DNA from: Dehalococcoidia bacterium
GTDB taxonomy: Bacteria; Chloroflexota; Dehalococcoidia; Lucifugimonadales; UBA3495
Reading direction: 5' to 3'
Length of the DNA stretch: 45,994 bases
Assembly: GCA_022827095.1 (NCBI GenBank)
Contig: JAJDTP010000012.1
Span: 95,057-141,050 of the forward strand
The notes beneath the pieces are model-generated. The model searched no databases and was not told where the DNA came from. It saw only the letters and a program-made list of their open reading frames with translations. The position numbers and the translations under genes were made by a program. Each line of letters opens with the position of its first letter. Positions within the stretch are counted from its first letter, which is position 1. Shown here in pieces: positions 1 through 3,865 of this stretch.

Positions 1-340
1 GCATTGCCTATGCAGCTGGAGACACTACTGCTTGGTGGAGCCACTTACCCGGCTACCGCGGCCGGGCGCCAGTCGCACTCCGTCAATCAATAGCCTCGTC
101 GAACTGTTCCAAAGACTTGGCTTTGAACTTTGCGGCGACGCCCACGATGAAGCGGGTCTGGAGAAAATAGCGCTCTACGCAAAAGGTGACTGCTGGACTC
201 ACGCGGCGGTACAGTTGCCAGGCGGCGCTTGGAGCAGCAAGCTGGGCCCGGATGAAGACATTCGGCACAACACCCCTGAATCACTCTGCGGCGAGTCCTA
301 CAGTCAAGTTCACTGCGTCATGCGACGACCTCGAATGTGA
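1..340 (+). pseudogene. DUF7689-like protein, 5' partial and frameshifted
   Basis: The gene enters from the left edge. From base 3 the third forward frame reads IAYAAGDTTAWWSHLPGYR, which fits the N-terminal NCIAxAAGDTxxWW motif I recall for DUF7689-type proteins; bases 1-2 fit the end of the cysteine codon. The rest of the domain is in the second frame (PSINSLVELFQRLGFELC, then EKIALYAKG, WSSKLGPDEDI and a final MRRPR) and ends with TGA at 338-340. The switch falls near base 59, where one missing base would restore GYRWPGASR. This is a one-base deletion or an assembly error. The function of the family is unknown to me. It lies upstream of the nitrile hydratase-like block on the same strand. 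A shorter reading starts with TTG at 32 but would lack the conserved N-terminus. Confidence 0.6.
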
Positions 341-390
341 ACCGAAACAACCACAGCCATCGACAACCTCACAATCCCAGGGTTCCGCTA

Positions 391-693
391 ATGACTTCCA
401 CGAGTTCTGAAACCGTCCGCTACGCCGATGGCGCCGCCGTCCGCGTCCGCGTTGGATACCCGGCGCACCACTTCCGCACGCCGGCTTACATTCAGGGGCA
501 TACTGGCCTCGTTGACGCTCTCTGCGGGGTTTACCCGAACCCCGAATTGCTGGCCCACGGCGGTGATGGACTGCCCCGCCAACCCCTCTACCGGATCCGT
601 CTGCGCCAGACCGACCTGTGGCCCGACTACGCCGGCAATCCGGCGGACACCCTGCTGGTGGACGTGTACCAGCACTGGCTGGAACCCGCCTGA
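391..693 (+). CDS. Nitrile hydratase / thiocyanate hydrolase beta-like small subunit (C-terminal half only)
   Basis: A 100-residue protein matching the SH3-like C-terminal half of nitrile hydratase beta: a VRVRVGYPAHHFRTPAYIQG core, GLVDALCG, an LYRIRLRQTDLW stretch and the final LLVDVYQHWLEPA. In the family the conserved arginine of the H-x-R-x-P motif contacts the oxidised cysteine claw of the alpha subunit. Full nitrile hydratase beta is about 220 residues with a helical N-terminal half. That half is absent here, as in thiocyanate hydrolase, where the two halves are separate subunits. The ATG at 391 is preferred over an in-frame GTG at 337, which would overlap the previous gene and add an unconserved tail. 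The partner alpha-like gene is 2.5 kb downstream in the same block. Substrate (nitrile, thiocyanate or other) cannot be told from sequence. Confidence 0.75.
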   Translation: MTSTSSETVRYADGAAVRVRVGYPAHHFRTPAYIQGHTGLVDALCGVYPNPELLAHGGDGLPRQPLYRIRLRQTDLWPDYAGNPADTLLVDVYQHWLEPA

Positions 694-741
694 TTTGTGC
701 TATCTTGCCGACCAGCGTTGCAATTGAGAGGTATGTGAACG

Positions 742-1914
742 ATGGAGCGACCGATATTTCAGCCTATTGGCTCCCCCGCCGAGGAACTGGATACGCCAGC
801 CTTGGTGGTCGATCTGGGGGTAATGGAGCAGAACATCGCGGTCCTGCACGGCACGTTCAGCGGCTCTAACGATGGATCGGACAATGGCGGTGTCGCGGTT
901 CGCCCTCATGTCTCCTGCCATGGCTGCCCTGAAATCTCCCAGTTCCAGCTGTCCGCAGCAGGAAGCGCCGGAGGCGTGGCGGTTGGCTCTTTGGCGGAAG
1001 CCGAGGCGTTTGCCGCCGGCGAAAACGGTTCCACTGACGACGGGGCCGCATCATCTCACCGCGCAATGGATGACATACTGATAGCGGGCCGGGTGGTTAC
1101 CCCCGCCAAGATCAACCGACTGGTTGCTCTGGCTGGTCGGATCAAGTTGAGCGTAGCAGTCGACAACCCCCGCAACGTCCAGGATCTTGCCGAGGCAGCG
1201 CAAGCCGCCGGCGTCACTTTGGGCGTGTTGGTGGACATGGATGCCGGATACGGGTTTGGCGGTGTGGCGCCCGGGCAGGAAACGGTCGATCTGGCGCGAA
1301 CGGTTCTGGACGCGCCCGGATTGTCCTTCGGTGGGTTAATGACCTACGAAGGCCCGTTGCCCATAACGGACCGGGCGGAACTGGAAGCCGAAACCCGGAG
1401 CCGGTTGCAACCGGTCCTGGACACGCGAAGCGACCTGGAGCAGGCCGGGTTTGAGGTTGCTACGGTAAGCGCGGGCAGCACCTACAACTACGATACGATC
1501 TCCCAACTGTCGGGGATCACTGAGGTACAGGCCGGTGTGTATCCCCTGATGGACATGGAGACCCTGCGAATCCGTCCGGAATTTCAGCCGGCGGCCAGTG
1601 TTCTGGCTACGGTCATCAGCCATCCAGTGGCGGGTCGGGCCGTGGTGGACGCCGGTCACAAGACCACCGGTCCAGATTTCGGTGTACCCGTTCTGGAGGG
1701 GTTCGAAGGGGCATTCGCTTCCAGGTTCAGCGCCGAGCACGGGATCCTGGATTTGGAGGGACCGGCCACCGACCGACTGATGCCCAACGACAAGGTCCAC
1801 CTGGTTCCGTACAACCTGGCCCTTTGCGTCAATCAGTATGACTACATCCGCGCCGTGCGGGATGGCAAGCTGGTGGGTTACTGGCGGGTCACCGGGCGGG
1901 GACAACTGGGGTAG
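742..1914 (+). CDS. DSD1/D-threonine aldolase-like PLP-fold protein lacking the Schiff-base lysine
   Basis: A 390-residue protein with the fold-type III (alanine racemase-like barrel plus beta domain) layout of D-serine dehydratase/D-threonine aldolase: LDTPALVVDL near residue 17, a GSLAEAEAFAAG stretch, ILIAGRVVTPAKI, SAGSTYNYD near 248 and a C-terminal beta domain. The PLP-binding motif is normally RPHxKTHK. Here it reads RPHVSCHGC, so the Schiff-base lysine is replaced by Ser58. The C-terminal metal motif (usually H-x-C or H-x-D) is also changed, to NLA in VPYNLALC. A ribosome binding site GAGAGG lies at 726-731. It may be a non-catalytic or repurposed paralogue paired with the next gene. 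The fold assignment is firm; the activity is unknown. Confidence 0.75.
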   Translation: MERPIFQPIGSPAEELDTPALVVDLGVMEQNIAVLHGTFSGSNDGSDNGGVAVRPHVSCHGCPEISQFQLSAAGSAGGVAVGSLAEAEAFAAGENGSTDDGAASSHRAMDDILIAGRVVTPAKINRLVALAGRIKLSVAVDNPRNVQDLAEAAQAAGVTLGVLVDMDAGYGFGGVAPGQETVDLARTVLDAPGLSFGGLMTYEGPLPITDRAELEAETRSRLQPVLDTRSDLEQAGFEVATVSAGSTYNYDTISQLSGITEVQAGVYPLMDMETLRIRPEFQPAASVLATVISHPVAGRAVVDAGHKTTGPDFGVPVLEGFEGAFASRFSAEHGILDLEGPATDRLMPNDKVHLVPYNLALCVNQYDYIRAVRDGKLVGYWRVTGRGQLG

Positions 1915-1982
1915 CGCCAACTCCCCGATCAGTGTTCGCGACAAGTTTAGATCAGAGATGCAGGAACCTCGGAGGTACGTCC

Positions 1983-3086
1983 ATGCCGCAAGACTATGAA
2001 CCCCATCCCGGCACGCCCGTTTCGCAACTGGACACTCCATGCCTGATCTTGGACATGGACGCTCTGGATCACAACATGGACGTGATTGCTAATTTCTACG
2101 CAGATCGCCACAGCAAGTTGCGTGGACACAGCAAGAATCACAAGAGCCCCGCCATTGCCCTGCGGCAGATCCAGCGGGGCGGCACCATCGGCGGGGTCTG
2201 CGCCGCCAAGGTCGCCGAGGCGGAGGTGATGGTGCAGGGTGGCGTGTCCAGCGTGTTCGTGACCAGCGAGGTGGTTGCGCCGCCGAAGATCGCCCGGCTC
2301 TGCGCCCTGGCGGACCAGGCCGAGATCCTGGTGGCCTGCGAAAACGAAGCGAACGCCCACGATCTTTCCCAGGCCGCCTCCTCCCAGGGCGTCAACCTAG
2401 GGGTGGTAATCGAGCAGGAAACCGGCCTGGTCCGGTGCGGGGTGCAGGAGGCGGAAACCGGCCTGGCACTGGCTCGATTGATTGACTCGCTGCCCGGGCT
2501 CTCCCTGAAAGGCGTGATGAGCCACCAGATGATGGCGGAACCTTCCGGAGACCTGGAGGACCGGACCTCCGAAGCACACCACCTGATTCAGCCGGTTCTG
2601 GATCTCAGGGAAGCAATGCTCGCCGACGGCTTGCCGGTTGAAATCGTGTCGACGGGGGAAACCTGGAGCTATGATATCGCCGGGGATATGCCGGAAGTCA
2701 CCGAGATCCAGGGCGGCTCATACCTGGTGATGGAAACCTCGTACGAATACATGGAGGATTTTCATCTGGCCGGCAAGGTGCTGTCGTCCATCATCAGCGT
2801 CCCACGTCCGGGAATAGCGATCGGTGATGCTGGAGCCCGGGCCGTGGGAGGCATGAAGGGGTTGCCGCGAGTGGAGGGTCGTCCAGGAGTCGAGGCCGTA
2901 GATATGAACACCGACCGCACGGTGTTCCAAGTGGCGGAGGGAGCCGAGCTGGCGGTTGGCGATCAGGTAGTGCTACTTCCCGGCCAGCAGGACGCCATGG
3001 TCAGTCGCTGGGATCGGTTCGTCGGCATACGTGACGGAATGGTGGAGACGGTTTGGGAAATCGAGGCACGGGGCTGTCACAACTAG
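1983..3086 (+). CDS. DSD1/D-threonine aldolase family PLP-dependent enzyme
   Basis: A 367-residue paralogue of the preceding protein, separated from it by 68 bases. It keeps the PLP lysine (K51 in RGHSKNHKSP), the VAEAEVMVQGG and VFVTSEVVAPPKIARL motifs, ETGLVRCG, and the STGETWSYD phosphate-site segment. Family members cleave or dehydrate D-hydroxyamino acids in the cytoplasm using PLP and a divalent metal. The usual C-terminal metal pair is altered here (PGQQDAM instead of PxHxC/D), so a normal D-threonine aldolase reaction is not assured. The ATG at 1983 is chosen because GGAGG lies at 1971-1975; the in-frame GTG at 1932 has no such support. It is probably co-transcribed with the nitrile hydratase-like genes. 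Confidence 0.8.
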   Translation: MPQDYEPHPGTPVSQLDTPCLILDMDALDHNMDVIANFYADRHSKLRGHSKNHKSPAIALRQIQRGGTIGGVCAAKVAEAEVMVQGGVSSVFVTSEVVAPPKIARLCALADQAEILVACENEANAHDLSQAASSQGVNLGVVIEQETGLVRCGVQEAETGLALARLIDSLPGLSLKGVMSHQMMAEPSGDLEDRTSEAHHLIQPVLDLREAMLADGLPVEIVSTGETWSYDIAGDMPEVTEIQGGSYLVMETSYEYMEDFHLAGKVLSSIISVPRPGIAIGDAGARAVGGMKGLPRVEGRPGVEAVDMNTDRTVFQVAEGAELAVGDQVVLLPGQQDAMVSRWDRFVGIRDGMVETVWEIEARGCHN

Positions 3087-3170
3087 AGGTTGTATTTCCA
3101 AAGGCGATTGCCCGCAAGCACAATCGGTTCTGATCAATAGCGGCTCCCGCTGAACATTGGAGAGAAGAAT

Positions 3171-3785
3171 ATGACCGCAACTCACGTTGTCGACCACATT
3201 CACGACGAGCCCATGAGCGAGGTAGCCCTCCGCTCCGTGGCCATTGAAGCCTTGCTCGCGGAAAAGGGACTGCTCACTGCTGATGAGGTACGGCGGCAGG
3301 TGAATCTGATGGACGGTCGGACTCCCGCTGACGGGGCTCGTGTCGTGGCACGTGCCTGGGTGGACGATGGCTTCAAGGCTCGCCTGCTGGCTGACTCCCG
3401 GTCCGCGTTGGCCGAGATGGGCGTCGCGATTCCCGAGGAAACACCGCACTTGACCGTGGTCGAAAACACTGATGACGTTCACCACATGGTCGTGTGTACC
3501 CTTTGCTCTTGCTACCCGCGGATGCTGCTCGGTCGCCCGCCAGACTGGTACAAGAGCCTGGCTTACCGCGCCCGCGCGGTCCGCGACCCCCGTGGTGTCA
3601 TGGCGGAGTTCGGTGCACAGCCGCCGGACGATGCCGAGGTCCGCGTCCTGGACAGCACCGCGGACGTGCGCTACTTGGTGCTGCCCCGTCGGCCTTCGGG
3701 TACTGAGGGCATGGGTGAAGAGGAACTCGCCGCCCTCGTGAGCCGGGACAGCATGATTGGAGTTACCGACGCCCTGACGCCCTGA
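3171..3785 (+). CDS. Nitrile hydratase / thiocyanate hydrolase alpha-like catalytic subunit (cobalt-type claw)
   Basis: A 204-residue protein of normal nitrile hydratase alpha length. The metal claw VCTLCSCYP has Cys109, Cys112 and Cys114. In known enzymes the last two cysteines are oxidised and, with backbone amides, bind Co(III) or Fe(III); CTLCSC followed by Tyr is typical of cobalt types. The downstream PPDWYKSLAYRARAVRDPRGV segment is strongly conserved. The usual PWPVLG after the claw is PRMLLG here. The helical N-terminus (ALRSVAIEALLAEKG) is also family-like. GGAGAGAAG precedes the ATG. It is the last gene of the block, followed by a strong terminator. No activator or cobalt chaperone gene lies next to it. 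Reaction class (nitrile or thiocyanate hydration) is inferred from family only. Confidence 0.88.
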   Translation: MTATHVVDHIHDEPMSEVALRSVAIEALLAEKGLLTADEVRRQVNLMDGRTPADGARVVARAWVDDGFKARLLADSRSALAEMGVAIPEETPHLTVVENTDDVHHMVVCTLCSCYPRMLLGRPPDWYKSLAYRARAVRDPRGVMAEFGAQPPDDAEVRVLDSTADVRYLVLPRRPSGTEGMGEEELAALVSRDSMIGVTDALTP

Positions 3786-3806
3786 ACCCGATGGTTCCGC
3801 AAACTG

Positions 3807-3836
3807 GTTGGGGGCGAATATTCATTCGCCCCCAAC
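3807..3836 (+). terminator. Rho-independent terminator after the nitrile hydratase-like block
   Basis: A perfect 13-bp stem (GTTGGGGGCGAAT with ATTCGCCCCCAAC) around the loop ATTC, followed by TTTT. It lies between the end of the alpha-like gene and the convergent rpiB gene. A related hairpin with the same GGGGCGAAT arm lies at 22031. Confidence 0.9.
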
Positions 3837-3865
3837 TTTTCTGTCGCGGTTCCGTTCCTAGTTTC

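Follow-up and report, generated by a model that had tools for sequence, protein, structure and literature searches.

A putative composite-site pyridoxal-phosphate heterodimer encoded within a split cobalt-type nitrile hydratase operon of a marine SAR202-group bacterium

The window analysed here is the whole of a 45,994-nucleotide stretch (G000:C10:95057-141050) from a marine SAR202-group bacterium, and four genes near its left end, betaC, PLP1, PLP2 and alpha, all lie on the + strand with gaps of 48, 68 and 84 bp. We consider it probable that this transcription unit holds two modules, a split cobalt (Co)-type nitrile hydratase and a pair of paralogues with a pyridoxal 5'-phosphate (PLP) enzyme fold, PLP1 and PLP2, which would form an obligate heterodimer with a single composite active site. 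The sequences, residue patterns, tree and synteny presented below were observed, and from them we infer the heterodimer, its single site and the class of reaction. The features of the operon are as follows.

391..693, + strand: nitrile hydratase beta C-terminal half (betaC); PF02211 (NHase_beta_C), 3.3e-19; second active-site arginine in HHFRTP
742..1914, + strand: PLP1, putative pseudo-subunit of D-threonine-aldolase fold; Ala_racemase_N and D-ser_dehydrat domains (Pfam)
913-915, + strand: Ser58 of PLP1, replacing the catalytic lysine (residue comparison)
1660-1662, + strand: Lys307 of PLP1, a cross-protomer loop residue, kept (residue comparison)
1729-1740, + strand: Ser330-Ala331-Glu332-His333 loop of PLP1, kept (residue comparison)
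1983..3086, + strand: PLP2, the lysine-bearing partner; Ala_racemase_N and D-ser_dehydrat domains (Pfam)
2133-2135, + strand: Lys51 of PLP2, catalytic lysine (residue comparison)
3171..3785, + strand: nitrile hydratase alpha with Co-type claw VCTLCSC; PF02979 (NHase_alpha), 1.2e-79; TIGR01323, 252.4 bits
3806-3837, + strand: probable intrinsic terminator after alpha, a 14-pair stem followed by TTTCT

The two PLP proteins share the D-threonine aldolase/DSD1 fold and two-domain architecture of the D-threonine aldolase/BhcC/D-serine dehydratase family (PF01168 plus PF14031; PDB 4v15, 6qkb, 7dib and 3anu), according to Pfam and phmmer for both and to Foldseek for PLP1, whose predicted structure (predicted local distance difference test score, pLDDT, 86.7) has D-threonine aldolases as its best matches at a template modelling (TM) score of about 0.86. 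Neither protein reaches the BhcC model NF045642, with 189.4 and 247.2 bits against a cut-off of 690. An earlier, sequence-only reading of this DNA had described two DSD1-type PLP genes; they are not two ordinary DSD1 enzymes, since PLP1 lacks the catalytic lysine.

The D-threonine aldolase of Alcaligenes xylosoxidans (AxDTA), whose residue numbering we follow in the PLP comparisons, forms homodimers whose two sites are equal and which use a metal pair of His and Asp. Each protomer contributes to its own site residues that include Lys59, Arg157, Tyr187, Thr233, Gln249, Ser252 and Tyr260, and in the head-to-tail dimer the loops 295-298 and 319-323 are supplied by the second protomer (PMC4401734). 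Here, in contrast, diverged paralogues share the residues of the site. Lys59, Arg157 and a histidine at position 187 occur together in 89 of 90 distinct PLP2 sequences, whereas Lys59 is present in three of 87 distinct PLP1 sequences and lost in the other 84. The loops show the opposite pattern, with Gly295, Lys297, Ser320, Ala321, Glu322 and His323 in every PLP1 (87/87), and with Lys297, Glu322 and His323 together in just 5/90 PLP2 sequences; in the window PLP2 the cross-protomer loops are degenerate. When conserved columns were drawn at random 20,000 times, no draw matched this contrast between own-site and loop conservation (permutation p about 5e-5, to be read as a guide because neither columns nor sequences are independent). 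What is retained of the D-threonine aldolase family is, in PLP2, the catalytic lysine and Arg157 and, in PLP1, the cross-protomer loops.

These patterns suggest that the barrel of PLP2 would hold PLP on Lys51 and that the beta-domain loops of PLP1 (Lys307 and Ser330-His333) would complete the PLP2 active site, and the mirror site, in which the barrel is that of PLP1 and the loops are those of PLP2, would be dead. Alternatively, PLP1 might be a regulatory pseudoenzyme in the style of a prozyme or antizyme inhibitor, which attaches to PLP2 and exerts an allosteric activating or stabilising effect but does not complete its site. There is precedent for the activation of an enzyme by a paralogue that is itself catalytically dead (PMC5201418, PMC3663545), and PLP1 is without the lysine and most PLP-binding residues; we regard this alternative as unlikely, as it leaves unexplained why the very loops that reach the partner site are invariant in PLP1 and lost in PLP2.

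The metal ligands of the D-threonine aldolase family, His347 and Asp349 (or Cys), are likewise altered, the pair being incomplete in most PLP2 sequences and gone from PLP1, also from the three PLP1 proteins that bear the lysine. Position 347 is Gln or Tyr in 79/90 PLP2 sequences, mostly Gln (the window PLP2 has Gln for His), and position 349 is Asp in 87/90; in PLP1, position 347 is mostly Asp, Asn or Glu and position 349 Gly, Ala or Ser. Because neither chain keeps the His/Asp pair whole, the chemistry is probably unlike that of D-threonine aldolase, and with its metal site changed the enzyme is not likely to be simply a D-threonine aldolase or a D-serine dehydratase. The likeliest class of reaction would be a metal-independent one whose substrate is a D-amino acid or a beta-hydroxy amino acid.

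The pair is found across the whole order, as a stand-alone tandem outside the focal genus, with PLP1 placed first in 52 loci plus further cases. The ratio of nonsynonymous to synonymous substitution (dN/dS), computed on five within-genus pairs, is 0.13-0.17 for PLP1 and 0.07-0.08 for PLP2, so both genes are under purifying selection. We rejected the possibility that PLP1 is a decaying pseudogene on the grounds of this ratio, of reading frames that are open in most loci (genome G064 has PLP1 split over two frames) and of the 87/87 invariant loop residues. It might also be proposed that PLP1 and PLP2 are independent homodimers and that PLP1 has taken on a new, lysine-independent role such as ligand binding; the selection on PLP1 and its confident predicted fold as a lone chain are in keeping with this, yet the tandem pairing at 52 loci and the complementary loss of residues are left unexplained, and we consider the proposal improbable.

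In the phylogenetic tree PLP1, PLP2 and the canonical enzymes each fall on one side of a branch (SH-like approximate likelihood ratio test, SH-aLRT, 99, 100 and 97), and the PLP1 proteins without the lysine are set apart from the three that bear it at SH-aLRT 96. In those three (loci L153, L146 and L147, of families f4 and f12) the PLP1 site is canonical throughout, and the partner PLP2 keeps Lys297, Glu322 and His323, as do just two of the other 87 PLP2 sequences. Joint loss of the PLP1 site and of the PLP2 loops is what would be expected if both had belonged to a single site that disappeared as a whole. On balance we favour, by a modest margin over its negation, an order-wide obligate heterodimer of the SAR202 group in which a lysine-less subunit gives half of the sole site and the activity is new and metal-independent, with the deep lineages representing an intermediate in which both sites are intact. 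The named relatives of the pair are mostly metagenome-assembled genomes (MAGs) of SAR202, Dehalococcoidia or Chloroflexota; relatives under records of other phyla (L226, a Proteobacteria MAG, and L234, a Poseidoniales MAG) are possibly misbinned contigs.

Several points weigh against the composite heterodimer. The PLP1:PLP2 complex is deduced from sequence patterns, and the assignment of loops to a second protomer comes from one paper, which is inconsistent on the domain placement of His347 and Asp349 (PMC4401734). PLP1 could be an allosteric partner instead, and it may be that the coupled decay happened just once, with the deep lineages keeping ancestral states in both genes. In some genomes of families f40 and f41 there is an additional PLP2 that has no PLP1 beside it (L123, G247:C19), a further extra PLP2 (L114, G245:C117) lies too near a contig end for its PLP1 neighbour to be judged, and in genomes G018 and G025 PLP1 and PLP2 are unlinked. 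The extra PLP2-type genes of L123 and L114 group together in the tree.

For a composite site of this kind there is a known parallel in serine palmitoyltransferase LCB1/LCB2, in which one subunit without the PLP lysine keeps other catalytic residues and one site per heterodimer is the working hypothesis (PMC3794620). Here too the members of a pair of PLP paralogues have lost complementary parts of the site, with the heterodimer predicted. LCB1/LCB2 differs in being eukaryotic, in its unrelated PLP fold and in its chemistry. It belongs to the type I PLP fold, and the alanine-racemase fold is type III. No paper on the PLP1-PLP2 pair in SAR202 surfaced in the open-access literature, nor did a heterodimer of the PLP1:PLP2 kind; in the same literature SAR202 and nitrile hydratase were found together in one passing mention.

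The other module, judged by its sequence, is a three-gene Co-type nitrile hydratase that is ordinary for the group. Pfam gives NHase_beta_C only for betaC, which is without the N-terminal domain, and the missing half lies outside the window together with the gene before it.

window 1..390, + strand: right end of a 2.4-kb insert, with DUF7689 coding sequence at 2-340, spread over two frames that overlap
genome C10:92766-93085, + strand: beta N-half (betaN); PF21006, 1.6e-21; ends 1,971 bp before the window
genome C10:91944-92762 (L005:1945-2763), + strand: polysaccharide-deacetylase-family gene, directly before betaN

The sequence-only reading had expected a split beta with its N-terminal half just left of base 1, and betaN was indeed located there, which disposes of the possibility that it is absent. 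A complete beta subunit elsewhere in the genome was among the findings that it had named as refuting it; this candidate was rejected, the genome-wide matches being one alpha, one betaN (PF21006) and one betaC (PF02211). As betaN is itself the sole PF21006 match, that model reveals no separate activator gene in the genome; other activator types were not searched. The polysaccharide-deacetylase-family gene precedes betaN across much of family f1.

Our survey of the hydratase covered the surroundings of alpha at 60 loci and, in addition, the locus in the window. The claw CTLCSC is present in 60 of these 61 alpha sequences, and the arginines that we take, from the Pseudomonas putida enzyme and our alignments, to be those of the active site are conserved in betaN (55/55) and betaC (53/53). 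The alpha protein passes the nitrile hydratase alpha model TIGR01323 (252.4 bits against a cut-off of 249.85), and together betaN, betaC and alpha would form the usual nitrile-to-amide enzyme. From known Co-type nitrile hydratases it differs in that beta is made as two polypeptides, with genes parted by an insert, and in that no activator gene was found by PF21006. An alpha match occurs in 105/250 genomes of the order, where beta is split in 44/50 loci and fused in 6/50; in those congeners where no insert interrupts them, betaN and betaC either overlap or have 2 bp between them. In two genomes alpha and betaC are far apart on one contig, by ~535 kb in G192 (C1:2263210, C1:1728207) and by ~1.03 Mb in G021 (C1:1080514, C1:48531).

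The split beta had led the sequence-only reading to call the block thiocyanate hydrolase-like, and this part of it has not survived. Thiocyanate hydrolase does likewise have three separate subunits with a split beta, and betaN and betaC each match its subunits weakly. However, alpha scores 191.9 bits with TIGR03887, the model for the gamma subunit of thiocyanate hydrolase, and so falls well short of the 291.45 bits required; it aligns over 191 residues as against 208 in the gamma subunit, and the closest solved chains for the hydratase subunits are Co-type nitrile hydratases (for betaC, e.g., 3qyg_B). The division into three polypeptides is common to most hydratases of the order and so is not diagnostic, and because a split beta is the order-wide norm we favour a three-gene nitrile hydratase and hold a thiocyanate hydrolase to be very improbable. 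Toyocamycin nitrile hydratase ToyJKL also consists of three polypeptides with a split beta.

As to how the two modules came together, the sequence-only reading had described four genes in one direction with short gaps, an intact claw and one terminator, and this description holds; the full order is repeated, beyond what chance would give, in nine other genomes of the focal genus (14 genomes), and in one more, G185, the contig stops inside PLP2. The window has three terminator-like sites against 2.3 expected in shuffles, a count that is not significant; the stem at 3806-3837 is by far the longest among them. The arrangement betaC-PLP1-PLP2 occurs in 11/14 genomes of the genus (G000, G181-G185, G187-G191) and in no other locus read, and the remaining three genomes show no PLP pair. 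Gene order is conserved within the genus, then, but not outside it: in other genera both hydratase and PLP pair are common and unlinked, for instance in G176, of another genus in the same family, where ~800 kb separates them.

This bears on the suggestion of the sequence-only reading that the PLP proteins process the product of the nitrile hydratase in a single pathway of D- or hydroxy-amino acid chemistry. The common strand, short gaps and single terminator are in keeping with such a pathway, as is the retention of betaC-PLP1-PLP2 in 11 genomes, with the stretch between betaC and alpha free of inserts apart from the PLP pair although five loci took differing inserts between betaN and betaC. 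Against it, the one-contig genome G193 has betaN-betaC-alpha without the PLP pair, and some genomes have the pair without an alpha match (e.g., G018, G023, G243). As the linkage is confined to one genus, we consider the joint pathway weak and unlikely. In both the PLP1 and the PLP2 tree the focal genus adjoins genera g2 and g5, so relocation within the lineage fits better than gain from outside. The union of the hydratase and the PLP pair is probably a genus-level relocation, for which a functional tie is possible and not required.

The gap between the beta gene halves is a cargo hotspot with stacked cassettes. In the window genome a cargo insert of ~2.4 kb (C10:93086-95446; L005:3087-5447) parts betaN from betaC and reaches window 1-390, and differing cargo of 1.7-3.4 kb lies at this point in 5/11 genus loci (L005, L038, L039, L040, L041). 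The cassettes are common to several genomes and differently combined, the main predicted cargo genes share the direction of the operon, and scars lie between stacked cassettes, of betaC at L005:4540-4623 in the window genome and of betaN at L038:5006-5103. The cargo includes an HNH protein, a PIN-domain protein, DUF7689 and a protein matching the PADLOC candidate PDC-M09A; between betaC and alpha, the PLP pair is the sole insert seen in the genus loci. DUF7689 occupies two overlapping frames in the window genome (window 2-340; L005:4964-5397) and one frame at L038:4467-4979, the split frame reflecting either a frameshift or a sequencing error.

In the order loci surveyed, no gene near the PLP pair stood out convincingly as a conserved pathway partner. 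In 12 groups (L106, L109, L111 and others) members of a single gene family are found upstream of the pair, on its strand; Pfam identifies the gene as TsaD in L106 and L111, the two checked. In family f1 (L128, L131, L133, L137, L142 and others) opposite-strand neighbours recur beside the pair, namely formate-tetrahydrofolate ligase, methionine synthase, CoA-transferase III and a member of the Asp/Glu racemase family; these may be merely positional, or possibly a lead toward one-carbon metabolism.

Annotation at the level of the family, as alanine racemase or serine dehydratase domains, masks a gene without a catalytic lysine in a widespread marine group. If the composite heterodimer is real, it would be a bacterial and independently evolved counterpart of LCB1/LCB2 in a different PLP fold, the ancestral two-site and derived one-site states would both be alive in present lineages, and the passage from a symmetric homodimer to an obligate heterodimer by complementary loss would become directly testable.

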